Shown: positions 6,161 to 62,881 of the stretch, piece by piece
Layout: each line of letters opens with the position of its first letter
Position numbering within the stretch: the stretch's first letter is position 1
From: Chytriomyces cf. hyalinus JEL632
Taxonomy: Eukaryota > Chytridiomycota > Chytridiomycetes > Chytridiales > Chytriomycetaceae
DNA length: 64,000 nt
Assembly (NCBI GenBank): GCA_025435555.1
Contig: JAIWWG010000090.1
Location: forward strand, 54,883 to 118,882
Reading direction: 5' to 3'
Notes under the pieces: model-generated
Seen by the model: the letters and a program-made list of their open reading frames with translations, nothing else
Databases searched by the model: none
Told to the model about the DNA's origin: nothing
Translations under genes and position numbers: made by a program

Positions 6161-9100
6161 TCACTCGTCGTTGACAGTCTCTTCCACAGAATTCAAATAG
6201 AACTGAACAGTTTCAAGTTCTGAGACAAAAAACTCCCACTTTTTGTACCATTCAGCCGAAACGGGAATTTCTAAAGAAACGCGTGTAAATCTCAGTGACC
6301 ATTGTTTCAGAAACACTGGCGCGATTTCCTTTTACCTTGACAGTAGATGGTAAACTTGTCACGTGGGTACTCGTACGGTCCTTCAAGCCGAATTTGGTCC
6401 AAGTGCTTTAATGCTTGGAGCATTTTCTCGAGGCCGCGTTCAGTCAGGTGGTTTCCTGTGCATTTTCTTTTAAGAGATGCCCGACTTGCGAAAAAAATTT
6501 GCAGAATTACCGTTCAAGACGATATGTCCTGCGAGTTTCAAAGGATTGATGGCGAGACGTTCAAGGAGGACATCAATGACGGTGTCGTCCAAACCGCAAT
6601 CTAATCGTGAAGTTGCAAGTTTTGTAAAAAAGATCAGACTGGCGAATGGATAACCCTGCTCACTTGTCAGCTCAATGATCGGGAATGCCCAGTCAGGGAT
6701 GCACGCAAACAGAGCCGCTGCTTGTTCAGTATCCATTTGGCAATCTGCCGAGGTGTCAGACTGCAAAATAATCCCATAGTTCATCAGTGAGCACCCCTTA
6801 CCGTTAAACTCCAAGTACGAAAATGGTTCAATAGCAGTTTCTCCATGCATATCTTTCTTGGTCAGTGGAACCTCAACCGCCTCATCCCCCTCAGCAACCT
6901 CAGTAACCTCTTTAGTAGTTTCCCCAGATTCTTGTCCCGCTGTTGGTTCTTTGCAGTGCTTGTCCCACGCTTCGTCAATGACTTTTGTCCACTCGTCGTA
7001 TTTCTGGCGTCCCATTGTTGCAAGCGCTTCAGCAGTTTTCTTGAAAAACTCGAGCGACATTTTGTCATCTGGAATTGAGGATACGTTGTTTGGTTGCGTT
7101 GGTTCAGGAGTTAAGGGGAGGAGGAGGGAGTTACCTTGAATTCGCCATCGCGAAATATCGCCCGCCAGAATTTTGTTGCAAAACACTTCTGTAAACTGTG
7201 AGTCTCCTGTAACGCCATTGGCTTTAAAGCAGCGTGTGTATATGTGTGTTAAGATCAATTGAGCAGTTGCATACACACTCACATAACATGTCAATCAAGA
7301 AATCTTTGGAGGACAAATTCAAAATCTTGGCGGCTGACGCGTCCCCAAGCTGGCATCGCGATACGTCCAAATTTTCCAATGTGCGGTCTTCCGGATTTTT
7401 CAACGCCTCGACAAATGCATCGACTGATTCTGCGTCCATTGGCATGTCTGTTTGAAAGTTGAAAAGCGTGAGTACCGCAAGCATTTCCAATCTTCTTCTT
7501 CAAGAAAAACTTACCAGACAACGTCAAAGTCTTGAGACTTTTATTGCTGTTGAGCCCGGGCGCCAGTGCAACAAATCCATTGCTCGTAAAATCGTTTTCT
7601 GGGAAAGATAGGAAGTGAATATTGAACGCAAAACTGAGCATTACCAGCGACTTACTGGACAAGTCAAGCATATCCAATGCAGAGAGCTCTTCAATCGCAG
7701 TTGAAATAGCTCTTGCCGCGTTATCAGCAATGTTTGTTTCTGTTAAAAAAAAAACGCGGGTATGAGCGAGCGAAGGCTGTATATTTGCTGACCGAAATCA
7801 CACTCACGCTGCAAACTCAATCTCTCAATAGTAGGTTTCTCATTCAACGCAAGTCCCTCAAACAGCATTTTCACAGCAGCGTCGCCAAGTGGATTTCCTG
7901 GTCGTAACAGCTTGTGAGTATTCTGTTTGAGCAGTCAAGTTCAACTCACTTGCAAGGTACAGGCCCGACAATCCAGTTGCTTCACGGGCAAACTTGTGCA
8001 GGTCCTTTGCACAGCCAGGACCAATATTGTTTCCATCCAGACTCAAACCGTCCACGGTGCAAGCGTTTGTAAATACTTTGAGGAGTGACGAGAATCCAAC
8101 GGCACTGATTTCATTTTCTGAATTTGCAACGCAGACGTTGAGGTTTTTTTTAAGTCATAAACCCAAATTCCATTCATGTTTTACCGTCCATGATCAGGTA
8201 ACCAAGGCCGTTTTTCATCTTGCGGAACGCGTTGGCAAGGAGACTCACATCCTGATCCGTGAGTCCAAGGTCTGCGAAATAAAAAAAAATATTACGAAAA
8301 AACTCAAAAAAGGCGCGGGAAAATGCGGTGGGTAGCGTACTGTTAAACGTCAGGGACAACTTGTGATCCTCAATAATGTTGTTGTCTTCACTGCCACACT
8401 CATCATCACTCTCCTCTTCCCCTTCCTCAGCCTCCTCCAGCTTTACTTGCTCCACGCTTTCAGTGAGCGAAATTTCATGCTCAGATGTCGCGCCATGTTC
8501 ATGTTCAGCAGCCGCTGCATTCCGTACCTCCGCCTCAGCGGCAGCAGTTTTCAATGCAGCCTGTTTCGCAAGTTCCTTCCCACGGCAAACTAAAGCGTCA
8601 CAAAGCGGCTTCATCCACGGTTGCGATTGCTTCTTTTCAATCTTGTTGCTCCCAGAATCCTTTGCCTTCCCTCCAGCAGCAGTGCCACTCTTTTTCTTTG
8701 TTGCTGGTTTGGCAGTCTCGGACAATGCAATTGTAATTTCAGTGATCGAGGCACTGTTCACGATGCATGTCGTCAGTGCTCCGATAAGCGCCTCAGACTG
8801 GATTTCGATTGTCTTTAATCCAGGCAGTTTTCCCAGTAGCAGGCCAAGACTGTCTGGTACATCTTCTTCCTTCACGTTGATGTTTATGTAAGAGAATACA
8901 ATCAGTTCCAAGTCTGGTTTGCCGTATTCCCACAACTCTGTCAAGAGTAAAAGCGAGGCTGCGTCCATATCCAGGTAGTAGGTGCTTGGCTGGATTCCGT
9001 CTCTGAGTAAACTTGTCGATTCAAACCCGAAATTGGAGCCCACTCTGCACGAGGTGATGCTGTTGTGGTTTTTGATGGCTTTGTACAGGTCATGAAGTCC

Positions 9101-11399
9101 CGTCAGGTCATTGTCGGTCAGGTTCAATGTCTCCAACTGGTCATTTACTTTCAAAGCTGCTGTCAGAAGGTTCCATGTCTGCTTGTCGGCCAGGTTGGCA
9201 CCTGAGTTGACCGAGTCAGACGTAAGATGGAGAGACACAAATTAGAGGAAATACTGTTACCACTGAGGTTGATATTTTTCAAGAATGAGTAGTTTTGTTT
9301 CAGACCGTGCGTGAGAATTTCCATCGAATTCCTTGACATCCTCGGATTGGCTGTTGGTTTAAATCAGTGATGCGATCAAGTGAATGAGATGAACAATCCA
9401 CGATAGACAGTTACTTCTGAAAGACACGGACAAATTCTTCAACGACTTGCGATATTCAAGAATCCCATGTTTCTTTTCCTTCTCGGACCCAAAGAGCTCC
9501 TTCAGATCAAAACTGGACAAGAACTTGATATCAAACTCAGTGCTATCAAAAGAAGTATCCGGAAACTGTTGAAAAAAGGACGCTTCCGTCGCGCACTGAT
9601 TCGCCGCCGCCTTCATCTGCAATGGAGCGTACGTTTGCAAAGCCTTGATCAAGTCGGGGATTGACCAAGACACTTCGTTCACGTCCAGCTGGACTCCTTG
9701 TATTTGTTTGACTTCGTACAGCGTTTTTGACGCGGCCCATTTGTGCGCGTCAGGTTTGTTTGGACGCAATTTCGGACAATTTTCGGACTTGAGGAATTTG
9801 CTTGCGTCGTCCAAGCCTTTAATACCTTTCAGATTGTCATTGATGAAGACTTTTTTTGGGTTGGAACGTGCTGTTAGAAATAAAGAAAAACGGGGCAGTT
9901 GTTGAGTGGATTACCTGGTTGAGGCACGCAAATATTTTTCTGGCCGGCCATGACGGCGGTTTCCCATTCCAACAAAACATTGTCAGCATTTTCATTCGAC
10001 CAAACCATCGGCTCTGCTGCGCCGCCAGACACAAGCATCAGAATACACCTCGAGTTTTTCAGACCTTGCACGAACCCGTCGCGCCAGTCCTATTTTCAGT
10101 AATACCCCTTCAGGAAACACATAGACGCAGCCAAAAATTAAGAAGCTGTTAACCTGTCCCTTTTTAAGACACTCCTTGTCCCAGAACACGGTCACTTGCC
10201 TGGAATTACCTCTTTCATCCATGATTCTTTGGCCCTTTAATCGAAAGTACAATTCCATTGCTACGCGTGCCTCAGATGAAACGCGGTACGAAATGAAAAA
10301 GTCATATGTTTCCTTTTCTTGAAACCAACCCCCGCATGCGCCAGGAGATGCTTGAAGATCCGTCGGGATTGATTTTGGTGGGGAACGCGGATCCATGACC
10401 GCCAGAGTATAAATGTCTTTTGATTCGGTTGTGATGGTGGTGGTGGTGGTAGTGGGGACGGGGGTGGCAGTGGGTGCAGAGGCAGCAGTCGAAAAGAAAC
10501 CAGAACCCCGGCGAATCGTGTTGAAAATTCCAGAAACATTGAGCGCGGATGCGGCAACTGGAGACAGTTTTTCTAGGCTTGGCTTTGGCACGAGGCTTGG
10601 AATCAAAATCTTTTGCTCCTTCAAGTTGTTCAGTTGTTCGTGCAGGTCTGACAGCTCCTTTTCCTTCATGGCCAGCGTTGCTTTCAACTCCCGAATTTCA
10701 ATTTGCGCGTCCAGCAGCGAAGAGTACTCTTCGTGATGTTTACTGGCATCGTTCGGTGATTGGGCCATGTGTCGCAGAATTGTTTCGATATGACGAAGCG
10801 CGGCCATTTTGACGGGGAGACCTTTCTGTGCCTTGTACAAGTCTGTGAAGGCCTCCAATGACTTCACAATGGCCTTGTTTTGAATCGTTGGCGCCTTGAT
10901 GTCCGAAATTTGCTTGTTGTCCAGAGTGGAAAAGAAACGGTTGACGCTCTTTTTGGTCTCAGCTTTGCGCAGGTTTCGGTCTTTGGCCATTTCAAACGCA
11001 AACACTTTCAAGTCCTTTCGCAGTTCTTCCTTTTCACGTGAAGAGAGATTTCAGTACGTGGAGTAGACATTTGACATGTGTCTCATTGCCCTTCTTGTTG
11101 TTCTCACCACAAAGTTTGCCAGAGATGCCGGCGACAAGTCCATCTCGTCCTCCTCCATGATTTCGCCTTCAGGCTCTGATTCTTCCTCAGCGGCATCGGC
11201 CAACGTGTCGTCCACCTTGTTTTGGTCGAGTAAACGGGCTGGGCTCCAGACTGCCGCTGGCTTCGGTGGGTTTGTGGCGACCCAGATAATGGGGTGGTCT
11301 TTGCCTGTGTCTGTGAGGGAGTCAGGATAGGTAGAGCATTGGGGGTGGGTGGGAAGGAAGGGCGGGCATACCCGCTGTGTCGGGTGTCCCAGCAATCAT
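6161..11399 (-). CDS. TIR-domain plus leucine-rich-repeat protein (many exons)
   Basis: A long gene reads right to left. A short first exon (ATG at 11399) is joined through GTATGC...CACAG to a segment with an acidic tail. Next come a helical/coiled-coil region (about residues 80-230), a Ser/Thr-rich linker, then a TIR domain at about residues 315-460. TIR landmarks are YDFFISYRV (strand A), VFWDKECLKKGQ (BB-loop region), DWRDGFVQGLKNSRC, and NADNVLLEWETAV, where Glu sits at the position of the catalytic Glu of TIR NADases. A linker of about 170 residues shows no P-loop. RNI-type LRRs follow (QLETLNLTDNDLTG, MDGLSLDGNNIGPGCA, SLKTLTLSG), interrupted by an acidic, Ala/Glu-rich insertion (~8650-8390). 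The last exons, through GNHLTERGLEKML, end at TGA 6161. Exons ARSNPKKVF..., NHLTERGLE... and EIPVSAEW... join in phase, so this is one gene of roughly 1,250 residues. It is likely a cytosolic immune or cell-death type receptor or scaffold; that role is inferred. Confidence 0.8.
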
Positions 11400-12246: not shown

Positions 12247-14076
12247 ATGTCGCAAGAGATCACGCATTCCTGCATGTATTCTGACGACGAGGACACTGAG
12301 AACAACGTACACGACAGGGGCGAATCTGAGAACGATGACGAAAGCGCAGCCGAGTTGATCATGTCCTTCAGCAACAGTGCTGACGCTCAAGGTCCTGTTG
12401 ACGCTGTATGTGTTCATTGCGGCGTCATTCTGCACCACGAGTCCATGGTCAAGACAAAAGTCAGCCCCCACCTGATGGCCTACCTTGCCATTAAGGAGAA
12501 AACTTGTCCATCCCTTGATACCACGGTGACCATGTGCAAGATGCCGCCACGACGGGAATGCTACAAAGGGTACGAAAAGTGGAAAAAAACTACGGCAGGA
12601 AAGGCAGCTGCAAAAGCAGTCATTGCCACTCTTGCAATAAGCGAGAAGAAGGCAAGAACCATTGAAGATTGCGATGGAACTGATGATGAAGGTAAGATCA
12701 TAGAATTTTATGTTCTGGTGATTATTGCAAGTTGTTTAACATGTACAACACTTTAGACATCCAACCTCACACGAAGAAGGAGAAAAAGAATTCCGTCGTA
12801 AAGAGCAGAGAAATGTCCCCACAGATTGTTGCTGGTGAGTTGAACACAGTTTGACTAAGTGCAGAAGTTCTGACATACAATCGCAGTCAAAATCCGTGTC
12901 GCACTTCACTCACCAAGCAATCTGAAAGGTGTATATGAAGTGCTTAAGTGCACTGAAGTTCTGCTTCCAGATTCAATCGATTCATTGGTGGCATTGCGAT
13001 ACCATCTGGAAGATGAGCTCGAAGCGTGGGCTCCCTCAGAATGGGACGACGGGATCTATTATCAGGCTGGAATCAAAAAAGCAGAGGGAGCTGTCATGGA
13101 TATCCTGAACTTTAAGCGATACGAATCAATTTTGCTTTCCATTGTCAAGCAAAAGCAGACGCCAGTTATTGTCCTTAAACAACGCAAAAGCGAGGCGAAA
13201 GGAAGTGGTCATGGAACACGTATCGGTGGAACAGGTTCGGGGGGCCGTAATGACCGTGCTCAAGAATATGCAGCAAACAGTAAACGGCTTGAAGCTTTAG
13301 TCATGGATCATTGTAACATCAACAAGTCCGGCTGCTTTCACAAAATGTTTCATGGTGTCACCAAGCATTTGAAACTGTCCATGCCTATGATTGCAAACTG
13401 GGCTCGGCACATCAACTTGGGTACTCCTGGAGTTTCTTTCACTTCTCCTCCTGATCTTCCTACCTTTGACGATGACAATTTCACGTTTGACTGTGGTACT
13501 CCTTCGAAAGCTCTGGACAATATTCCAAAAGCTCCATTCAGTTCATTTGCGCAGAACCAACAGAATCAGCAACCGCCTCAGTTCTCTAATCAGCATTTCT
13601 TCCAAACACCTGCAACGTGCTTCTATTCGAATCCTGGGCCGCAGCAGCACTATACCAACAGTCCAACAACACCAGTTCAGCAGCACTATATGAACAGTCC
13701 AACAACACCAACAGTTCAGCCACGCCACCCAATGCATATTGTGCAACCTGCTCAAACACCCCCCAATGCACAGACATCCCTGCAGGCTCATTCTATTCAG
13801 CCAATGCCGTGTAACACCATTCGCTTTTTTCGCGAGCTAAATGGCACATTCCTTCCATTGACTGGGACAATACCATACAGTGACAGTGATACTCTTATCA
13901 CTGTAATGGAGATGGCAAGGCTGCCCACTGCTAAAAAAGGCAAAATTCTGACTGCGTGGGACAAGAAAAGAAGCGGGATGCAAGTGATGTTTGGTTTGGA
14001 GATTTCCTGTTCCTTCGAAAGCGGGAATGCAGAAGTAATCATAAGATCCATAGATGAAGTGGACATTGAGTATTAG
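12247..14076 (+). CDS. Transposon accessory protein ORF1 (unknown, zinc-finger-like N-terminus)
   Basis: Three exons: 12247-12691, 12757-12834 and 12887-14076, with GT-AG junctions that keep frame. The protein has about 570 residues. An acidic N-terminus leads into a Cys-containing module (VCVHCGVILHH ... MCKMP ... ECYKGYEKWKK), then a conserved block (LLPDSIDSL ... GAVMDILNFKRYES), a Gln/Pro/Asn/Thr-rich variable middle, and a conserved C-terminus (NTIRFFRELNGTFLPLTG ... GKILTAWDKK ... NAEVIIRS). A homologue with introns at the same three-exon positions lies at 61184-62881 in the second element. I recognise no known family. Its position facing the transposase suggests a transposition accessory or DNA-binding role, but this is inference only. 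Confidence 0.8.
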
Positions 14077-15445: not shown

Positions 15446-15638
15446 AGGATTTTTGGCACCAATAAAAGTCTGTGCGAGGAAGCGAACAAGTGACGGCCAG
15501 ACAGTTTGACCATCAGGCTGATAAGTATAATCACTCGGTAAGCCCAGTGTCTTATTGGATGTCCCATATTCAGTGGATGCAGCTCGCCCACTCACAGAAT
15601 CATTTCCACATGCTTTCAGATCCAGACGAACCAGGCGA

Positions 15639-16697
15639 ATGAACATCCTCGGCACCGTATCTGGACATGCCGAACCCCAAGTCAAGGCTTACTGCATGTA
15701 CATGCATTTTTACGTTGGTCTCAGTAAAGCTAAATTGGCTGTTCTGTTTCGCAAGACGCCATCATGCATAGCTGACTGGATTGCTGCATACGAACGGGGC
15801 GATGACATGACTCGAAAGGTGAAAGAGGTGACACACAGGAAGTTTGGAGTTGAACGGCGCAAGTGGCTTGTGGATCTGTACAAAGCGAAGCCAGTGCTGC
15901 TGTTGGAGGAGGCCAAAAGACATTTCGAAACTCAGTTCGGTGGTTCAATCAGTGCTCAGCATATCAGTGTTATCCTTCGCGAGTCTGGGCTCTCATGGAA
16001 AGTGCTTGAACGACGCGCAATTCAAATCAATCAGGAGGACGTAATTCGATTCGCAAATGATCTGGCAGTCACTCCATTTCTGTTGGAAAGCCTCGTATTC
16101 TTGGACGAAGTATCCTTCGATAATCGCGCAATGCTCCGATCAAAAGGGTGGGGGGTTCGCGGTGAAAAGCTGTACTTTCGTGGAGAGTTCACAAGGAAGC
16201 CAAGGGTTTCCCTGCTCTGCTGGATAGGCGTCAATGGACTGTTGGAGGCATCAATGACAGAGGGGACGTTTGACCGCACGAAATTTGCGTATTACTACAA
16301 AGAGTTCTGCACCAGCTCGGGCCATGTCTATCAGTATCCAGGGCCACACAGCGTGCACATTCTTGACGGGGCGAAGATCCATTGCAGTGCTGAGCTGATT
16401 TGTTTTCTGCGGGATCTTGGAATCATCCCAATATTTCTTCCCGCATACAGCCCATTCTTCAACCCCATCGAAATTGTTTTCGGACTTGTAAAGAAGTCGC
16501 TTCAGCGCCAATATGTCGAAAATAGTAAACGGGACCTGGCTGAGTTCATCTCGGATGTCTTGCAAATGTATACAAACTGCTCCTTCCACAAAATTTTTGC
16601 AAGCTGTGGTTATTCAGTTTCTGGTTTTAATCCTGGTGTGGCCTTCAATGTACCTCTGGCTGAGTTTGGTTTTGACCCGCAAGAAACTTCTCAATAA
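15639..16697 (+). CDS. DDE transposase 2, IS630/Tc1-like, single exon
   Basis: An intronless gene of about 350 codons; the first ATG in frame is 15639. The N-terminus carries a helix-turn-helix pair (LSKAKLAVLFRKTPSCIADW, then a second HTH with GSISAQHISVILRESGLSWK). The DDE_3 catalytic core has Asp in LESLVFLDEVSFDNR, Asp in SVHILDGAKIHCS, and Glu in FLPAYSPFFNPIEIVFGL. The tail (FHKIFASCGY) follows. It diverges from transposase 1 across the relic junction and converges on ORF4. Its low similarity to transposase 1 and different gene structure fit an origin in a separate element. All three catalytic residues are present, so it is probably functional. Confidence 0.88.
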   Translation: MNILGTVSGHAEPQVKAYCMYMHFYVGLSKAKLAVLFRKTPSCIADWIAAYERGDDMTRKVKEVTHRKFGVERRKWLVDLYKAKPVLLLEEAKRHFETQFGGSISAQHISVILRESGLSWKVLERRAIQINQEDVIRFANDLAVTPFLLESLVFLDEVSFDNRAMLRSKGWGVRGEKLYFRGEFTRKPRVSLLCWIGVNGLLEASMTEGTFDRTKFAYYYKEFCTSSGHVYQYPGPHSVHILDGAKIHCSAELICFLRDLGIIPIFLPAYSPFFNPIEIVFGLVKKSLQRQYVENSKRDLAEFISDVLQMYTNCSFHKIFASCGYSVSGFNPGVAFNVPLAEFGFDPQETSQ

Positions 16698-26044: not shown

Positions 26045-26254
26045 TTTCCGTGACTTTTTTTTTTTTTTTCGGGATTTTGGGATTTTGGGACTTATGGATT
26101 TCTTTAAATTTAGCAAACTGGGCGAATTATTTTCCGAATATTTCGAGCATTTATTTGCTGAATTATTGGGCGCAATAAAGGCTGTCTGGATGGCTGTTAC
26201 TGTCTGACGTGCTGTCAATCTTGTCGCTGATGCGTTGAATTTTTTCATTCGAGA
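26045..26254. promoter_or_regulatory. Shared divergent promoter (DUF1769 / phytochelatin synthase)
   Basis: Only 210 bp separate the two start codons, so both core promoters must lie here. A poly-T/A run at about 26057-26068 is next to the DUF1769 start. No metal-response element could be named with confidence. Confidence 0.5.
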
Positions 26255-29200
26255 ATGCCAGCCCCGCCCGTGCCACAAATCTTCCACGCGATGCAAGACC
26301 ACCAGACACAGACTCGCCTGGCTCTCAGGGAGCCACCACCCCCATCCTTTCTCCAACGCGATCCAGACACATCTCCTCGGAATACGAAATCGCAGTACAA
26401 AATCTTCAAAAGCGTGTCAGAGTCGCAGCTGTTTTCCTCAGAAATGGCCATGTTTAAGAAATCCTTGTTCTCAGCGGAGTCCTCGTCTGGCAGCAGCTGC
26501 GCCGAAGAGAACGATGCAAGGGAGTCTGCTGATGCTCCCACGCGCAACAACAACACCAGCAACACTCAACATCCCCGCACGTCCATTCGGTTTTCAAAAT
26601 CTCCATTACATTCAACTGCAATTTCTTTCGGCCAAATGAGTCCAGAGATCCTGCTGTCAAACAGCGATGATACCGGCTTCTCTAGCTTCCCAGCCTCCTC
26701 GCATCATGGCTATCTCCAACACAGTAGTACCGCCAGATTCCAGCAACAGCTACCAACACTGTCGCAACGCAAACCGACAACCATACCCACAGCCTCAGCC
26801 ACAACTTCCACTCCGCCAGCAGTAACACCTTCAAAGCGGCCCGCAAGCGGTTCCAGCCAACGATCCACCTTTCTCCGCCAGCAAGTCACCCAGCCTACAA
26901 CCAGCTTCTACAAGCGCAACCTCCCGACCACTTGCACATCCTTCCAAAGCCGTGAAGGCCGAGCCATCTTTGCGCAAGCATTGCAAGGCGCTTACATGGA
27001 GTGCTACTATAACCTCGCGATGCACTATACGACTCAGAGTGAGCCTGCGTACTGTGGGCTCAGCACGCTTGTCATGTCACTCAATGCGCTGGGGGTTGAT
27101 CCGTTGCGGCAGTGGAAAGGCGTGTGGCGGTGGTTTGACGAGAGTACGATTGAGACTGTGAGGGATCTGAAGGAGATTCAGGTGGACGGGATCACGCTGT
27201 GCGAGTTTGAGTGTATTGCCCGTATGAACGGGCTTGCGGCCGAGAGTAAGCGGGCGGATGCTGTGTGAGTAGTTCTTTCTCTCTTTCTTCTGCTGCTGCT
27301 GCTGCTGAGTTCATGAGCTGAAGGGCTAGCGTGGACAGCAAGGCAAGGCAAGGGTGTAGGAGGGAGTGTGGCCCACGTCGGTGTAACCGCCTCGTTGGCA
27401 CAACACGTGTTCAAAAAAATTTGAGCAACACACTGACACGTGATTTTTCGTTACGGCAGAACCAAAGACGCGTTCCTGCGGGACCTCAAACGCGCCTGTG
27501 CGTCTCAGTCGGAAGTGCTCGCTGTCTCTTACCACAGAGGTACTCTTAACCAGACTGGCACGGGTCACTTTAGTCCAGTTGGCGGGTAATATCTTTCCCT
27601 TATCTGTTTACTGGATCGCTTAAGCCCCTTTATCTGACAGGTTCAACGAGGAGAGCAACCAGGTTCTTGTCTTTGATGTTGCGCGATTCAAGTACACTGC
27701 ATACTGGGTCTCACTGGATTTGTTGTGGTGAGCTGTCCCTTTGAATACCTGTTGCCCTGCTAACCCTGCTTGACGCTGGAAACAGGGAATCCATGCTGCC
27801 AATTGACGAAAGCACTGGAAAACCGAGGTAAAGATGCCATTATCCGAGATTTAAACAAATGGTATGCCCAACCCCAAGTCTTCCACCCAAAAAACAGAGG
27901 ATACTGCCTGCTCTCGAAAGGAAAACGTGGTCTCATCCACTCGGCCATTGGCAAAATCTCGGAATCATACACACAACCATGGCCCATCGCCGTCAAACGC
28001 CTTGTCAAGGATCTCATTGTTTCAAAACCGCTCCTCGAAACATTCCCCAATGCTGCGCAGGAAAAGTCGTTCCATCGAGCATCCGAATCGTTGTTGAGTT
28101 TTGAAAGCCAGACAGAGTTGTATGAGTCGTTGCCGTTGCTGGGTGGTCGAACTACGGAAAAGAGGAATTCGTTGGAGCAGGTTGTGGATACGGTCCTTAA
28201 AAAGATTCCGGCAGATTTCTTTGCAATGTCAGAGAATGCGCTTTTTGCGCCGCCGTTGGATGAAAGTCTTATGGAGGTTTGTGTGTGTGTGTGTGTGTGT
28301 GCTTGTATTTTTGATGTCATACTCACCCAATTTCTTGGAACAACAAACACAGCCCTTCAGCAAACATGAAAAAACATCGCCTTATTTTCCTGACGACATG
28401 CGACTCCACCTCTCCCAAACACACTTATACAATCTCGTTCGAAAAGCGCTTTACAAACGCCAACAACTGACACGCAAATCGCAACACGCCGCGTCCATCG
28501 CTGCGGCCAACAAGTCACGTGGATACCCCTATTTTTCCGAGGTGCCAACTCTTGGCTCTTCAAATTGTCTAAATAACCCGACATCTCTCAGTCCGTCTTC
28601 ACCTGGTGCTGATGCAACTCATTCACGCAGTATCAGCGAGAATGCACCCGCGTTCCCGAGGTTTACTCATGTGAATAGTACAAGTTTACCTTCGTGTGCC
28701 ACGTCGGCGTTTTCCTCTGCGCCGGCAGTGACAACAAGCACTGCAGCAGCAGCCAACAGCAACAATACAATCATACCAAACAACAGCAGCACCATTCCAA
28801 CTGGAAACAAGAACTCTGCAAACAGTGCGAACCCGCACTGCAGTAAAACACACGCTGTCTGTGAATGCGATTCGTACATCCACGGCGACTACTTTTCGCG
28901 GTGTAAACGCCATGTGCATGGGTATACTGATTTTGTCGCGTTTTTAACGCTGTGTGTGGCGGCGATTGTGAGTGCCGGGCAGGTTGTTGCGCAGAAACAG
29001 AATGTTAGTACTGTGAGGCAACAATTGAAGCGGCAGGCGTCTGTTCCTTCTTCGGCTGTTGAAGGTCATGTTGCTGGTGGTGGTAGTTCTTGTGAGAATG
29101 CTGGCGTTGCAGGGGCGCATGCGGAAGACGGGTTTGACGTTGACTGCATGTGTCGGTTGTTTTTTGCAGTGCCTGGTGCAGAGAGCCCTGATATGTGTGC

Positions 29201-54286: not shown

Positions 54287-54831
54287 TGTTGAGACACCAG
54301 TATTGGAGGTGTCATGAGGAGTGGAGATGAAGGAGGCAAGCTTGCAACTAGTGATTGGTGTGCAGCTTGTGATTGGAGGAGTGGGAAAATTGTTTTTAGT
54401 TCTGGAGAGAAATTTCGGATTTTTCATGACAATGGAAAACTGCTTCCATTGTTATGCTTCCAGGATGATTCTGATTGGTTTTCATTCTTCTACCTTTTCC
54501 TATTTAGTTGGACCATTTCTTTCTCTTTTCTGTTTGTGAACTTATAGTGCAAGTGAGCAGTGATACTGACATCACTGTTTAAGGTATTAAACTATTGGTG
54601 AACTTATAGTGCAAGTGAGCAGTGATACTGACATCACTGTTTAAGGTATTAAAGTATTGGTGAACTTATAGTGCAAGTGAGCAGTGATACTGACATCACT
54701 GTTTAAGGTATTAAAGTATTGGTGAACTTATAGTGCAAGTGAGCAGTGATACTGACATCACTGTTTAAGTTACCTGATCAGATTCTCTCTGGTCATAATC
54801 ATTGTGAACCCAAAAGAGTGTGGTTACAACA
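54287..54831 (+). repeat. Left LTR (545 bp)
   Basis: Starts TGTTGAGACACCAG and ends GTGGTTACAACA. Contains four tandem copies of a 62-bp unit. Confidence 0.92.
54538..54770 (+). repeat. 62-bp tandem repeat, about four copies
   Basis: The unit begins gtgaacttatagtgcaagtg and includes gatactgacatcactgttta. Copies are nearly identical (one has aaactattg where others have aaagtattg). The right LTR has three copies (59048-59218), which explains the whole length difference of 62 bp between the LTRs. Confidence 0.9.
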
Positions 54832-54844
54832 CGTTATCAGCACC
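54832..54844 (+). promoter_or_regulatory. Putative primer-binding site
   Basis: CGTTATCAGCACC directly follows the left LTR. Its complement, GGTGCTGATAACG, looks like the anticodon arm of an isoleucine tRNA (loop CTGATAAC), rather than a tRNA 3' end. Copia-class elements are known that prime from an internal half-tRNA, so this is plausible but inferred. Confidence 0.5.
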
Positions 54845-55610
54845 AATCTCTAAACGTGAGCACAGACGACTCTTTGTCTAAATCTATCCCAATCTTCACT
54901 GGAGCTGGAGACACTTGGGGAAATTTCTTCTTGCGCTTGAGAACTGCACTTGAGGCAAAAGAAATTAGCTATGTCCTGACTCACACTGAATCTCAGGCAC
55001 AAGCTTTGGAAAAATTCAAAACTCGGTCTTGGGCAAAAGATGATGCTGTGGCCAGATTTTTCATCCTTGGAAAGCTGGCAGATTCCAGTATGAATATTGT
55101 TGCTACCTGCAAGACAGCTTCAGAAGTCATTACCACTCTGAAGAAGAGATATGAGGAAAATTCTACCATGTCTCTTATTGGGAGGATTGATGCCCTGATT
55201 GACATGAAGTACAAGGAAGGGGAAAACCTGTCTGCACATATTGGTCAAGTGAAAAGACTGGCAGATCTTATCACAGAGAACAAAACAGCACTGACTTCAG
55301 AGAAACTCCAAATGGTGATCCTACTGAGAGGAATGCCACACACAGAGGAATGGAGAGCAGTAGTGGCTAGTTTGAAATCTCAACCTGAGTCTCAGTTGAA
55401 TATTGAGCAAGTCCAGACTACACTTCTGGAAATCAATAGATCAAACAAGTCAAGGCAGGTCAAAAGCAAAAGTGGAAAGGATCAAGCATTTGAGGCACAG
55501 AACAAGAGCTCAAATGAAAAAGACAAATCCAAGGTAGAGTGCTTCAGCTGTGGCAAGAAAGGTCATTACAGTAGAGACTGTAGATCTGCTCCCAAGAAGG
55601 ATTCAAGAGG
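54832..55610 (+). CDS. Copia gag with CCHC zinc knuckle (no ATG)
   Basis: An open frame starts inside the LTR end and includes KSIPIFTGAGDTWGNFFLRL (Copia gag N-terminal domain), a UBN2-like helical region (TASEVITTLKKRYEENSTMS, DALIDMKYKEGENLSAHI) and the zinc knuckle CFSCGKKGHYSRDC. No ATG lies upstream of the gag domain; a GTG at about 54854 (VSTDDS) sits where a start would be expected, suggesting a mutated ATG. The frame is lost after ~55605, where coding-like sequence continues in another frame. Function in the element: virus-like particle protein of an intracellular retrotransposon. Confidence 0.8.
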
Positions 55611-55679
55611 TCTGACAAGAAAGACAGTAACAAGAAGAATGATCAAGCATCATTTGCGTATCAGGCAGCAAACACCAAG

Positions 55680-58600
55680 ACAGCTCCTGGTACGTTGACA
55701 GTGGAGCATCCAAGACATACACCAAGGACAAGTGGGCCTTGGTAGACTGTACTGAGTTTGAGCAACCAGATAGTGTGACAGTGGGAGATGGCAAAGTGCT
55801 TCCTGTAGTTGGTAAAGGAAGAGTCCATTTCAATGCCAAGGTAGATGGGAAGGAACATGAGGTCTCCTTCAATGATGTCTACTATGTCCCTGACCTAGTC
55901 TCAAACCTGATGTCCATGGCAGCACTGGACAAACTTGGAGTGGAGAGCAGCTCAAAGAATGGGCGCAAGACTTACACTTACAAAGGAAAGAAAATGATGG
56001 AGTCTCAAGTCCTCAACAACAGATGGTTGATAAGCTTGGAGGCAAAGCCAGGAAATGCACAGGAATATGCAAATCTGGCAGGAACTGCAGAGCTGTCTTA
56101 TGAGCTCCTGCACAGAAGGACAGCACATATGTCACTGAAGACATTAGCCAAGAGGGTTGATGGGATTTCAGTTAAAATACCACAAGAGAACAAAGCTTGT
56201 GGGAACTGTATGAAGGGTAAAATGCCCAACAGGTCATTCAAAGCTACTGGGAACAACAGCATCAGGAAACCTCTAGAGCTACTACACTTGGATTGCATTG
56301 TGATCAATACAACTGGAGCAAGGGGAGAAAAGTACTGCCATGTTTTCACTGATGAGTACACTGGAGCTGTATTCACATTCCCGACTGCTACAAAGGGCGG
56401 ACCTGAGCTCAAGGCATGTTTTACAGACTGGCTACCATTTGTTGAAAGAATCAGTAGCAATAAGGTCATGGCCATTAGATCTGATAATGCTAAGGAATAC
56501 ACAGAAGGTGTGTTCAAGGCGTACCTGCGGGAAAGAGGAATTGAGCATCAAATGATAGCACCTTATGAGCATCAGCAAAATGGGACAGCTGAAAGAATGA
56601 ACAGGACTGTCATGGAAAGAGCAAGAACTATCCTCAGTGAGAGTGGCATCAGCAAAAATCACTGGACCTCTGCAGTTCAGACATCTGCTTTTATCATTAA
56701 CAGAACTTTTGAGTCAAGAGATTCCAAAACACCATAGGAGTTGTTGACTGGATCAAGACCAAACCTGTCCAAACTGATTGTGTTTGGTGCAAAAGGATGG
56801 GTGAAAGTCCCAATTGAGAAAAGCAAGTCCAAGCTTGATGAAAGAGCACAGGAATGCAGAATGGTTGGATATGCCAATCAAGGAACTGCTTACATAGTGG
56901 TATTGAAGAACCACAAGCTTATGGTCACAAGCAATGTGAAGTTTGATGAGACTTTCAAGCCTGAATCTGGGTCTGGATCACAAACACAAGTGTCAGATGC
57001 TGAAGAAGATGATGACAACTCTTGGAGTTCAGATGTTGAACAAGTTCAAGGGGAGACTACAAATGACATTCCCACAGTTGAAGGGGAGTCAGATGAGGAT
57101 TCAGTAAATGATCCAGAAGAAACTGAAGCTCAACCAGTTCAAGTCAGAAGATCAGAAAGAATTGCTAAGAGCAAGATACCAGTCTTCAAAATCAGAATCA
57201 ACAAAGGCGACAACATTGATTTTGCATTGCTGACCTACAAGCAAGCAAGAAACAGTCTTCTTTGGGAATCAAGGTACAAGATTGCCACTGATAAGGAAAT
57301 GAAGAACTTGGAAAAGTATGACACTTGGTCATGGGGGTATTTACCAAAGGGAGTCAAACCTCATCCAAGCTTGTGGGTCATAACAGACAAAGAGCTACCA
57401 GACAAAACTATAGGCAAAGGGAGACTTGTAGTTGATGGTTCAAAGCAGCAAGGTGTTCTGGAGGTGTTTGCTCCAGTAGCCAGAGCAACATCTATAAGAA
57501 TACTCATGACATTGGCAACTCACCTGGGAATGGACATTCACCAGAGTGATGTGGTGGCAGCCTATTTGAACAGTCTGCTTAAGCCAGGGGAAGAGATCTG
57601 GATGATTCCACCACAAGGCTATGAGAAGTATGATGAGCATGAAAGGCTTCTCTACTGCAAGCTCAAGAAGGCACTGTATGGTCTCAAACAAGCAGGAAGA
57701 AGATGGAGAGAGAGACTCAGCACCTTCCTGATAAAACAAGGGTTCAGGGTTCTACTGCAAGAGCTATGTATTTTTGTCAAAGGGAAGATCTCAGACAAGA
57801 CATTGACCATGATTGGAACAATTGTAGATGATCTACTCACAAGCTACTTTGCGGAAAACAGAAGCAACTTTATGCAACTGTGGGATGCCATTTTAAAAGA
57901 GTTTGAAGTGAAGGACATGGGCAAGATCAGCAGATATCTTGGGATCAACTTTGAGTACAACAAGAAAGAAGGCAAGCTGACCATGTCACAGCAAAAGATG
58001 GTGCAAGAGATTCTTGACACTTTTGACATGACTGACTGCAAGCCAAGACCAACCCCAATGACAGCCAGACTGCAGATTTACCCAGAGCAAGATAAGGCAG
58101 AGATGACACAGAAGCCTTACAGAAAGCTTGTGGGATGTCTGATGTACCCAACTATCTGGACAAGACCTGATATTGCATTCCATGTGGGAATGTTGGGCCA
58201 GTGCTCAAGTCAAGCAAATGACACTCACTGGAAAGCTGGAATGAAAGTCCTCAGATACCTGAAAGGAACCATGGGGACAAAACTTGTCTGCAAAAGATCA
58301 AGTACAGTTGATCTGGTTGGTTATGCAGATGCAGAGTTTGGAGGAGATGTAAGGAGTGCAAAGCCAGTATTTGGCTACATGTGGTTTCTGGGAGGATGCC
58401 TGGTGGATTGGAAATCCAAGAAAAGCCAAACAGTGGCAGCATCAACAACTGCAGCAGAGTTGGAGGGACTCTACCAATGTTACCAACAGAGTGCTTGGAT
58501 TGCAGAGATGTACTTAGAGATCACAGGCATTAGTCTTTACCCAATCAAGATTTACCAAGACAACAGAGCAGTCATACTATTGGTCAAATCTGAAGGAATA

Positions 58601-58804
58601 GTCGATCGCATGAAACATGAATTGGTCAGGATCCAGTATCTGAGAGAAAAGATACAACAGGGAAAGTTGATTGTCAGCAAAGTGGATACAACCAATATGC
58701 TCTCTGATGGAATGACCAAGTCACTTGGAAAGAACTTGCATAGAGTATACATGGAACAAGCAGGACTGGATTTTAACAGTTGCTTGCTTGAAGGGGAGTG
58801 TTGA
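55680..58804 (+). pseudogene. Copia pol (protease, integrase, RT, RNase H) with lesions
   Basis: Protease has WYVDSGASKTY. The integrase has the HHCC zinc region (LLHRRTAHMS ... CGNCMKGK), Asp in LLHLDCIVI and MAIRSDNAKEY, and Glu in QQNGTAERMNR. An in-frame TAG at about 56735-56737 (after RDSKTP) separates it from ELLTGSRPN and the rest. Reverse transcriptase shows MDIHQSDVVAAYLNSLL, LYCKLKKALYGLKQAG and GTIVDDLL (usual YVDDLL). RNase H has VGYADAEFGGD, QTVAASTTAAELEGLYQ and IYQDNRAVILL. The stop lies at 58804 inside the right LTR. Two single-base frame changes lie between gag and protease (~55605 and ~55680). Confidence 0.9.
58790..58798 (+). promoter_or_regulatory. Polypurine tract
   Basis: GAAGGGGAG abuts the right LTR and would prime plus-strand DNA synthesis. 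Confidence 0.85.
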
Positions 58805-61183: not shown

Positions 61184-62881
61184 ATGGCCAACTATGACCA
61201 CTACAGTGACGATGCCACAGACCATGAATCTGAAGGAGACGATGAAAACAAGGATGATCACATCCAGGCAGCCCATTCCATACTCGCCATCAGCTCCAGT
61301 GATCAAAAACTCAGCAGTCCATATGGTCAATGTGTTGCATGCAACAGACTTGGCAGCATGGAATCACTGACCAGAGCAAGAGCCACCGCACATCTGGTTG
61401 CATATTTGAGGCAGTTTGAAATCAGTCTTCCAGTTGACTGCATGGCAGTAATGCTGTGCAAGATGCCACTATTGTGCTACCGGGGCTTTAACAACTGGAA
61501 GAAAACAGATGGCAGCCGAGTCTTACATTTGCCCATTCAAGCGCATGCAGGTAAGGATGAGATGAAGACTCAAGAAGACACAAGAGAAAATGAAGGTATG
61601 ATATGATCAAGTATTATTTGAGAGCAGCACTGACAGTATTAAATTAGAGAATTTGAAGCTGGCGCAAAAGAAAGTGAAAGTAGAAACACCAAAGAAACCA
61701 AATGCAGATGCTGTTGTAGCTCCGTTAGGTAACTGTGTTCAGAGTTTCTTCTCATCAATGCTAATTTCGGTAAAACAGCCATCCAGGCTGCTTTGCATTC
61801 ACCCTCCACTGCAAAAGGCATATCTGAAGTGCTGAATAGTACTGAAATACCTTTGCCAGATTCCATCAGCAGTTTAACTGATCTCTGCATGCATTTAGAA
61901 AAAGAGTTGGAAGAATGGGAACCAAGCTTGTGGGCCAAAGGGGTATACTACCAGACTGGAGCAAAAAAGTCAGAGGGCGCAGTGATGGACATCCTGAACT
62001 TTACACGCTTTCAATCCATTGTGTACTCCATTGTCCATCAAAAGAAGACCCCCATTTTGGTCGTTAAACAGCAAAAAAAGGCATCAGAAACCGGCACAAG
62101 TGGATCTCGAACAGGGGCATCATTTTCTGCTGGTCACAACGCAAGAGTCGAACATTCTATGTCGAATTTCGAAAAACTGGAGCTATCATTGATGGGACAA
62201 TGCACCATAAATGCAGGAAGCTGCTATCACAAGGACTTCAATGGGGTCACAAAGCATTTGAAAGTAACAATGAAAATGATGTCTCTGTGGGCTCAGCAAA
62301 TCAATGCAGGGGTGCAAGGAGTCTCGACAACCTCTCCACCCAATTTGTCTGACTTTGATGAAGAAAACTTCAAGACACTGCATGAGTCGGTTCACACGTG
62401 CGAAAAATTAGCGTCCATGCCATTGACTTCTTATGCAAAAAACCTGTTGGATCAATCTGAGCGTGCTATCAAAGTTCCATTCAGTGCAACACCAGATCAA
62501 TTTTATTCAGGTGCTTTTGCAAAGCAACCAGATTTAAGCAACACAAGTGCTCCTCAGGGTCTCTCAATTTGTACCAATCAACTGTCACAGCCTGCCCATG
62601 ATCAGCCATCAGTCTTGAACACAATTCAATTTTTCCGTGAACACAACAACACGCATTTACCACTCACTGGGAAAATTCACTATGACGACACTGACACGCT
62701 TTTCAACATGATGCAGAGTGCCCATTTGCCAACATTGAAGGAAGGAAAAATTTTGATTGCATGGGACAAGAATAAGGCAGGAGTTCAGGTCCTGTTGACA
62801 TCCAAAATATCACGCGCTTTTAGTCAAGGAGATGCAGAGGTTATAATTAAGGCTGCTGATATACCGGTTTTTGATTATTAG
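61184..62881 (+). CDS. Transposon accessory protein ORF1' (homologue of ORF1)
   Basis: Exons 61184-61595, 61648-61728 and 61779-62881, same three-exon layout as ORF1 at 12247-14076. The ATG sits in a good context (caccATGGcc). Shared features: the Cys module (CVACNRLG ... MLCKMPLLCYRGFNNWKK), PLPDSISSLTDL, GAVMDILNFTRFQSIVYSIV, a variable middle, and NTIQFFREHNNTHLPLTG ... KEGKILIAWDKN ... GDAEVIIKA at the end. No stop or frameshift was found, although the transposase beside it has a stop. The retained frame suggests selection on this protein. Function unknown. Confidence 0.82.

Follow-up and report, generated by a model that had tools for sequence, protein, structure and literature searches.

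The stretch analyzed here (hereafter, the window) comprises 64,000 nucleotides of contig JAIWWG010000090.1 of Chytriomyces cf. hyalinus JEL632. Its minus strand carries, from an ATG at 11399 to a TGA at 6161, a gene that encodes a TIR domain followed by leucine-rich repeats (LRRs), and which is referred to as the TIR-LRR gene. The initial annotation of this DNA had placed the gene at 6161..11399, and these coordinates are correct. A first hand-spliced model with 17 exons yields 1413 amino acids (aa), with a frame that is open throughout and a single terminal stop. Comparison with paralogues led to a refined model in which 18 introns separate 19 exons and the product measures 1373 aa (coding sequence of 4122 nt, stop included). 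The initial claim that the exons join in frame stands, yet two introns had been read through, both in phase 1 and both within 6511-7068, which is a single exon in the 17-exon model. Removal of the first (6745..6801, 57 nt) yields the repeat LEFN/DCQMDTEQ, and removal of the second (6601..6663, 63 nt) yields IELT/NCGLDD, each matched in both paralogues. Since both lengths are multiples of three, reading through them keeps the frame.

All 18 introns of the window gene are GT-AG, and introns 4-18 (i.e., fifteen consecutive introns) are all in phase 1, a run with a chance probability of about 7e-8 under equal phase use (summed by hand). Among exons 6-18, ten of thirteen measure 81-90 or 165-168 nt, corresponding to one or two repeats each. 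With such symmetric phase 1-1 exons, the number of LRR repeats could rise or fall while the reading frame is kept. Intron 1 and the first dozen residues are uncertain: exon 1, with the start codon (11372..11399), is the least certain exon, presenting 68-71% identity to the paralogues and no matching GT-AG there.

The encoded protein has a helical N-terminus, a TIR domain from aa 316 to about 515, and about a dozen LRRs of the ribonuclease inhibitor (RNI) type between about 600 and 1340. Exon 3 encodes the bulk of the helical N-terminal region (aa 78-245, 10526..11029) and also the first part of the TIR (aa 316-369, from YDFFISYR to CLKKGQ, 10154..10315), whose second part is in exon 4 (aa 370-427, 9915..10089). 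The first LRR occupies exon 6 (9261..9350). In exon 7 (8341..9201), LRR block A is accompanied by an acidic insert that evolves fast (aa approximately 771-886). LRR block B spans exons 8-14 (7135..8271), which are phase 1-1 exons with one or two RNI-type repeats each. Exons 15-18 (6336..7068) hold a second acidic insert and LRR block C, and exon 19 (6161..6270) encodes the C-terminal tail and the stop. All of these features are on the minus strand.

The best Pfam family for the 1413-aa model is TIR_2 (E-value of 1.2e-4, 23 bits), below the cut-off of 28. With a 288-aa TIR-bearing piece, TIR_2 matches all three paralogues (best E-value of 2.3e-6). A search of the PDB with a profile of the three sequences yielded 15 distinct sequences at E<=1, 14 of them SARM1. 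The remaining one, 4lzp_B, carries the label uncharacterised in its deposit; it is found again by a profile of the genome's other TIRs, and we take it to be a Brucella TIR protein. In the printed alignment, Glu410, i.e., the first Glu of LLEWE (codon at 9967..9969, minus strand), falls on the Glu of the SARM1 motif DWVHKEIVTAL, presumably the catalytic Glu642, while Glu412 sits two residues away from that column. Glu410 and its neighbourhood are invariant across the three paralogues. The placement of the LLEWE Glu at the NADase position, as proposed in the initial annotation, is thereby recovered at the level of sequence, from which we infer that the TIR may cleave nicotinamide adenine dinucleotide (NAD). 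When its profile was compared with a profile of four other TIRs from the genome, the alignment covered only the first half of the TIR (probability of 74%, P of 2.8e-5) and stopped short of Glu410. The TIR probably extends to about aa 515, given that IQGVQLDVNEVSWSIPDLIKAL (IQGVQLD...DLIKAL) looks, by eye, similar to the final strand and helix of the SARM1 TIR. The segment aa 428-580, which includes this probable C-terminal part (aa 428 to approximately 515, 9608..9870, minus strand), is 90-94% identical among the paralogues. Some 170 residues separate the end of the TIR core (427) from the first LRR (about 600), and half of these probably belong to the TIR.

The assignment of the repeats, which follow the LxxLxLxxN pattern with a length of 27-30 aa, to the RNI type was borne out. 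In the PDB search, aa 928-1106 match the ribonuclease inhibitor 4per_A (E-value of 2e-15) and aa 895-1109 match 1dfj_I, also of the ribonuclease inhibitor type (E-value of 1.2e-14). Among the best 60 of 80 matches, weaker ones are to the LRRs of NLRP proteins and to axonemal LRR proteins, including DRC5, radial spoke protein 15 and LRRC34. Pfam's LRR_6 matches aa 887-1171 above its cut-off (E-value of 3e-10). Within aa 581-1320, a loose LRR motif is found 11 times, while shuffled sequences average 4.1 (7 of 2000 shuffles reach 11); its strict form occurs three times.

The absence of a nucleotide-binding module and of a membrane segment, also claimed at the outset, agrees with what was found. 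A motif scan of the TIR-LRR protein finds no Walker A motif, and neither NACHT nor NB-ARC is among the six Pfam families that match it at E<=10. On the Kyte-Doolittle scale no 19-residue window exceeds 1.40, a value reached in the LRR region at aa 747, so that no membrane segment is indicated, nor is there a hydrophobic N-terminus. Pfam yields no ARM or SAM match in the protein. For the helical region at the N-terminus (about aa 66-245), Pfam and the PDB provide no convincing relative. By eye, it has a heptad-like stretch around aa 175-215, and a protein search of the genome matches it only in the three TIR-LRR genes. The entry PDC-S66 of a defence library matches all three family members (best E-value of 1.2e-5).

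The genome searched comprises 37.78 Mb in 242 contigs, and two further full-length TIR-LRR copies with the same domain order were found in it, one on contig C194 and one on C55. When the refined protein is aligned to each with splicing, 20 exons and zero stops result. Given that the aligner permits only GT-AG introns and penalises stops, GT-AG is imposed there. Of the 18 junctions of the refined model, 17 recur in the copies, with intron 4 within a few bases and intron 1 placed elsewhere, and each copy has one extra intron inside the window's exon 7. In a plain DNA alignment, to which no splice rules apply, both GT and AG are kept for 15 of the 16 introns of the first model in C194 and for 14 of 16 in C55, the failures being intron 1 in both copies and the acceptor of intron 4 in C55. 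From exon 2 onward, exons are 78-94% identical between the window and the copies and 90-99% between C194 and C55, and exons 4-6, which bridge the TIR to the LRRs, present 88-92% identity to both copies. Introns of the window present 38-75% identity to those of the copies, except for intron 4, at 82-88% over about 40 aligned bases.

The DNA flanking C194 and C55 is alike at about 88-90%, and the two may be a segmental duplicate or diverged haplotypes. The window locus shares with the copies almost only the gene itself, plus 58 bases upstream with C55. Hence, since C194 and C55 share their flanks and may be duplicate or haplotypes, the TIR-LRR gene is replicated at one locus at least and at two loci at most. 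On C55, at about 21.7-25.4 kb, the 3' end of the intact copy is immediately followed by pieces of another TIR-LRR copy, which are inverted and out of order.

The ratio of nonsynonymous to synonymous substitution rates (dN/dS) over the whole protein is 0.11-0.17 among the paralogues. The TIR core presents the lowest value of 11 segments, 0.03 for the window against both C194 (dS of 0.46) and C55 (dS of 0.44), and between C194 and C55 it differs by 13 synonymous and zero nonsynonymous changes. In the comparison of the window with the copies, dN/dS is 0.13-0.31 for the LRR blocks and 0.18-0.48 for the acidic inserts. The balance of synonymous and nonsynonymous changes differs between the TIR (aa 316-515) and the LRRs, with a Fisher test value of 0.010 for the window against C194 and of 0.0017 against C55. 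Five strand-exposed positions were then compared with the remaining ones in 11 regular LRR repeats. Against C194, the exposed positions carry 19 nonsynonymous and 10 synonymous changes, versus 45 and 63 elsewhere (Fisher 0.035), and against C55 they carry 23 and 11, versus 40 and 55 (Fisher 0.016). With random position sets, the 19 nonsynonymous changes of the C194 comparison are reached in 62 of 5000 sets, and the count of the C55 comparison in 1 of 5000. The conservation appears as in a fixed effector (the TIR) joined to a changing sensor face (the LRRs).

The organism is taken to be a flagellated fungus because chitin synthase N-domains (Chitin_synth_1N, 14 matches in the genome, which we take to be a fungal-type domain) occur together with radial-spoke protein genes, in agreement with the basal fungus proposed initially. 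Outside the TIR-LRR family, TIR_2 gives 15 additional exon matches in the genome, 11 of them above the cut-off. Four NACHT matches at E<=0.001 exist, one on contig C166 and three on C187, and each has a same-strand TIR exon approximately 0.5 kb upstream of it. At C187a, the only one of the four loci read by Pfam, TIR_2 and NPHP3_N/NACHT are found in consecutive reads. The contrast with fungal NOD-like receptors (NLRs) implied in the initial annotation therefore does not hold in its general form: four TIR-NACHT loci lie in the same genome, and TIR in NLRs of Chytridiomycota already has a mention in print (PMC9815663). NB-ARC has no match above the cut-off in the genome. As for LRRs beside other TIRs, the family LRR profile, applied to 15 stretches, matches only the TIR-LRR copies (L021, L022, L023); this profile was built from one family and may miss other LRRs, and stretches L030, L031 and L056 lay outside the set. 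EDS1-type EP domains yielded no match in the genome, in a search that had no positive control. Prokaryotic or viral relatives were not confirmed among 167 and 32 pattern matches, a weak negative because each search used two short peptides.

The TIR-NACHT loci are on the minus strand, at C187:82552-94313 (L054, L055), where three lie in tandem with a spacing of about 5.3 kb, and at C166:5611-6740 (L052). By eye, C187a has a WD-repeat-like read on its upstream side, and C187c a kinase-like one. On contig C211, at about 28.8-30.2 kb of the minus strand (L050), a TIR exon is followed by ankyrin repeats on the same strand. The TIR exons at C37:67998-68213, C46:6235-6450 and C204:209549-209764 (L024, L025, L026) belong to a block of at least about 8 kb whose three occurrences are 99.6-99.9% identical and each lie some 6 kb from an end of their contig, which is probably a subtelomeric duplication. 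A second TIR family, with the motif VMISYSW, is found on C123 and C184 (L028, L029) and on C68 (L053), with tandem copies on C123, and its TIR is flanked by hydrophobic, membrane-like stretches (by eye).

Elsewhere in the window, all on the plus strand, frames of a Copia-type retroelement occupy 54808-58801, with zinc knuckle, integrase-like and reverse transcriptase-like parts, and a frame of a DDE-type (Tc1/mariner-like) transposase occupies 15531-16694, both judged by eye. The frames at 12874-14073 and 61733-62878 are two members of one family, with a common C-terminal stretch (KGKILTAWDKKRSGMQV and EGKILIAWDKNKAGVQV, respectively). The frame at 26231-27265 resembles phytochelatin synthase, by eye.

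Regarding function, we lean modestly towards a cytosolic all-in-one receptor, in which an LRR sensor would directly gate an NAD-cleaving TIR. The concave face of the RNI-type LRR solenoid would sense a ligand, which may be non-self, damage or a self protein in modified form. In the resting state, the LRRs and the helical N-terminal region would keep the TIRs apart or inactive, and ligand binding would free the TIR, whose self-association may be aided by the helical or coiled-coil N-terminus. The assembled TIR would then cleave NAD+ by means of Glu410, and the loss of NAD or a nucleotide signal would lead to cell death or defence. Given the absence of NACHT and NB-ARC, activation would proceed by proximity or allostery, without an ATP/ADP switch.

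In favour of this receptor reading are the three intact genes with one domain order, the identity of exons above that of introns, the low dN/dS of the TIR core, the nonsynonymous changes concentrated at exposed LRR positions, the alignment of Glu410 with SARM1, the lack of Walker A and of a membrane segment, and the genome's other TIR exons, beside NACHT at four places and ahead of ankyrin repeats at C211. Several results weigh against it. The window copy itself reaches 26.1 bits with TIR_2, just below the cut-off of 28, and the best E-value of SARM1 in the PDB profile search is 0.027. The list of LRR matches also includes axonemal and Ran-related proteins. dN/dS is below 1 in every LRR block, and since the rate is below neutral in each of them, the LRR pattern is one of fast change at the putative binding face and does not prove positive selection. 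When C194 is compared with C55, the balance of changes does not differ between TIR and LRRs (Fisher 0.50), and the exposed positions hold only 5 nonsynonymous and 5 synonymous changes. Both exposed-site comparisons include the same window branch, and a single position, the residue before the second leucine, accounts for about half of the exposed nonsynonymous changes (10 of 19 and 11 of 23). That only three intact copies exist, with C194 and C55 possibly duplicate or haplotypes, could count against it as well.

The main rival explanation, which we regard as rather unlikely, is that the TIR is a non-enzymatic scaffold recruiting the genome's other TIR proteins, with the LRRs as a docking platform. 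The constraint on the TIR suits a binding surface as well as it suits an active site, and the 15 other TIR_2 exon matches offer possible partners. In addition, according to one survey, the Glu is also frequent in the TIRs of some Toll-like receptors and need not coincide with reported enzyme activity (PMC7075850). The invariance of the Glu410 neighbourhood in the three paralogues and the predominance of the NADase SARM1 among the PDB matches (14 of 15) speak against a scaffold, yet neither is decisive. A house-keeping flagellar or cytoskeletal protein, with structural RNI-type LRRs, a TIR serving as protein-binding module and no role in defence, is distinctly improbable. The organism does have radial-spoke genes, and DRC5, radial spoke protein 15 and LRRC34 are among the PDB relatives of the LRRs, but the top matches are the ribonuclease inhibitor and NLRP proteins, and the duplication, the fast acidic inserts and the changes at exposed positions were judged unusual for an axonemal part.

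Two further explanations question the gene itself. All exon joins are predicted, so that adjacent TIR and LRR genes, or an assembly join, might have been taken for one gene. That the same order is repeated at two other loci, that 17 of 18 junctions recur with stop-free spliced reads and open frames, that GT...AG is kept in the plain DNA alignment (15/16 in C194, 14/16 in C55) and that the bridging exons 4-6 are 88-92% identical make this very unlikely, and the initial claim of one spliced gene with both TIR and LRRs is upheld. The rearranged, fragmented copy at about 21.7-25.4 kb of C55 would suit a functionless relic or pseudogene family, which is hardly credible for three stop-free, full-length copies with a whole-protein dN/dS of 0.11-0.17. 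Hence, the two-gene, mis-assembly and pseudogene readings fail on account of the copies, the junctions, the exon identity and dN/dS.

In comparison with known systems, the protein combines features of several. Plant TIR-NB-ARC-LRR receptors (TNLs) such as ROQ1 and RPP1 likewise have a TIR effector ahead of C-terminal LRRs in one cytosolic protein, but the fungal protein lacks NB-ARC, has RNI-type LRRs and carries about 315 aa before the TIR. Animal Toll-like receptors likewise unite LRRs and a TIR without a nucleotide-binding domain, whereas the fungal protein has no hydrophobic N-terminus or membrane segment, and its TIR precedes the LRRs. SARM1 / TIR-1 is the closest solved TIR by sequence, agrees in the Glu column and likewise has its TIR tethered to repeats without a nucleotide-binding oligomerization domain (NOD). 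In place of ARM or SAM matches, however, the fungal protein presents helices and LRRs, and its TIR is central rather than C-terminal. RNI-type LRRs are present, while the P-loop of NLRs, the membrane segment of Toll-like receptors and the ARM and SAM of SARM1 are not. By analogy, the mechanism logic would be closer to SARM1 than to a plant TNL, with a domain order close to that of the TNL. The fungal TIR-NACHT loci (C166 and C187 a-c) have TIR exons in the same genome, but a P-loop NTPase in place of LRRs. TIR-NB and TIR-LRR associations are reported for two bacteria, Chloroherpeton thalassium and Rhodopirellula baltica, in a passage that does not state which species has which (PMC7145615).

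With regard to fungi, the survey by Soanes and Talbot reports no TIR (PF01582) in the proteins of 49 fungi and no LRR together with NACHT or NB-ARC (PMC2939053). Since LRR_6 is not among the three LRR models used there, the TIR-LRR family could have escaped that survey. Dyrka and co-workers report no LRR motifs among 5,616 fungal NLR candidates, the NLR-like proteins carrying WD, ankyrin (ANK) or tetratricopeptide (TPR) repeats instead (PMC4986451), and the absence of LRRs in fungal NLRs is repeated in a 2025 review (PMC12881547). TIRs in NLRs of Chytridiomycota are mentioned in PMC9815663 and in a 2023 review (PMC10197012). Among the matches listed in the open-licence literature (titles and starts of abstracts, with preprints outside this set), no description of a fungal TIR-LRR protein was found, and a Synchytrium comparative-genomics paper contains, in the part available, none of the words TIR, leucine-rich, NLR, NACHT and ankyrin.

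The window gene is an intact fungal gene that joins a TIR, by sequence of the NADase type, to LRRs without an ATP-driven switch, a combination not found described for fungi in the literature covered. Tentatively, and with somewhat less than an even chance, it may represent an immune receptor class of eukaryotes, seen in flagellated fungi, in which LRR sensing is coupled directly to an NAD-cleaving TIR without a nucleotide switch or membrane passage, beside TIR-NACHT receptors. If this is true, fungi did use LRR sensing, and a TIR-LRR receptor would be able to do without the NOD. A TIR-LRR family that is duplicated and under constraint contradicts the simple form of the surveys that found no LRR in fungal NLR-like proteins and no TIR in the proteins of 49 fungi. 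It would also provide a compact system for asking whether LRR binding alone switches a TIR, without the ATPase wheel of resistosomes, and the presence of TIR proteins with and without a NACHT neighbour in one genome bears on how TIR receptors came to be assembled.

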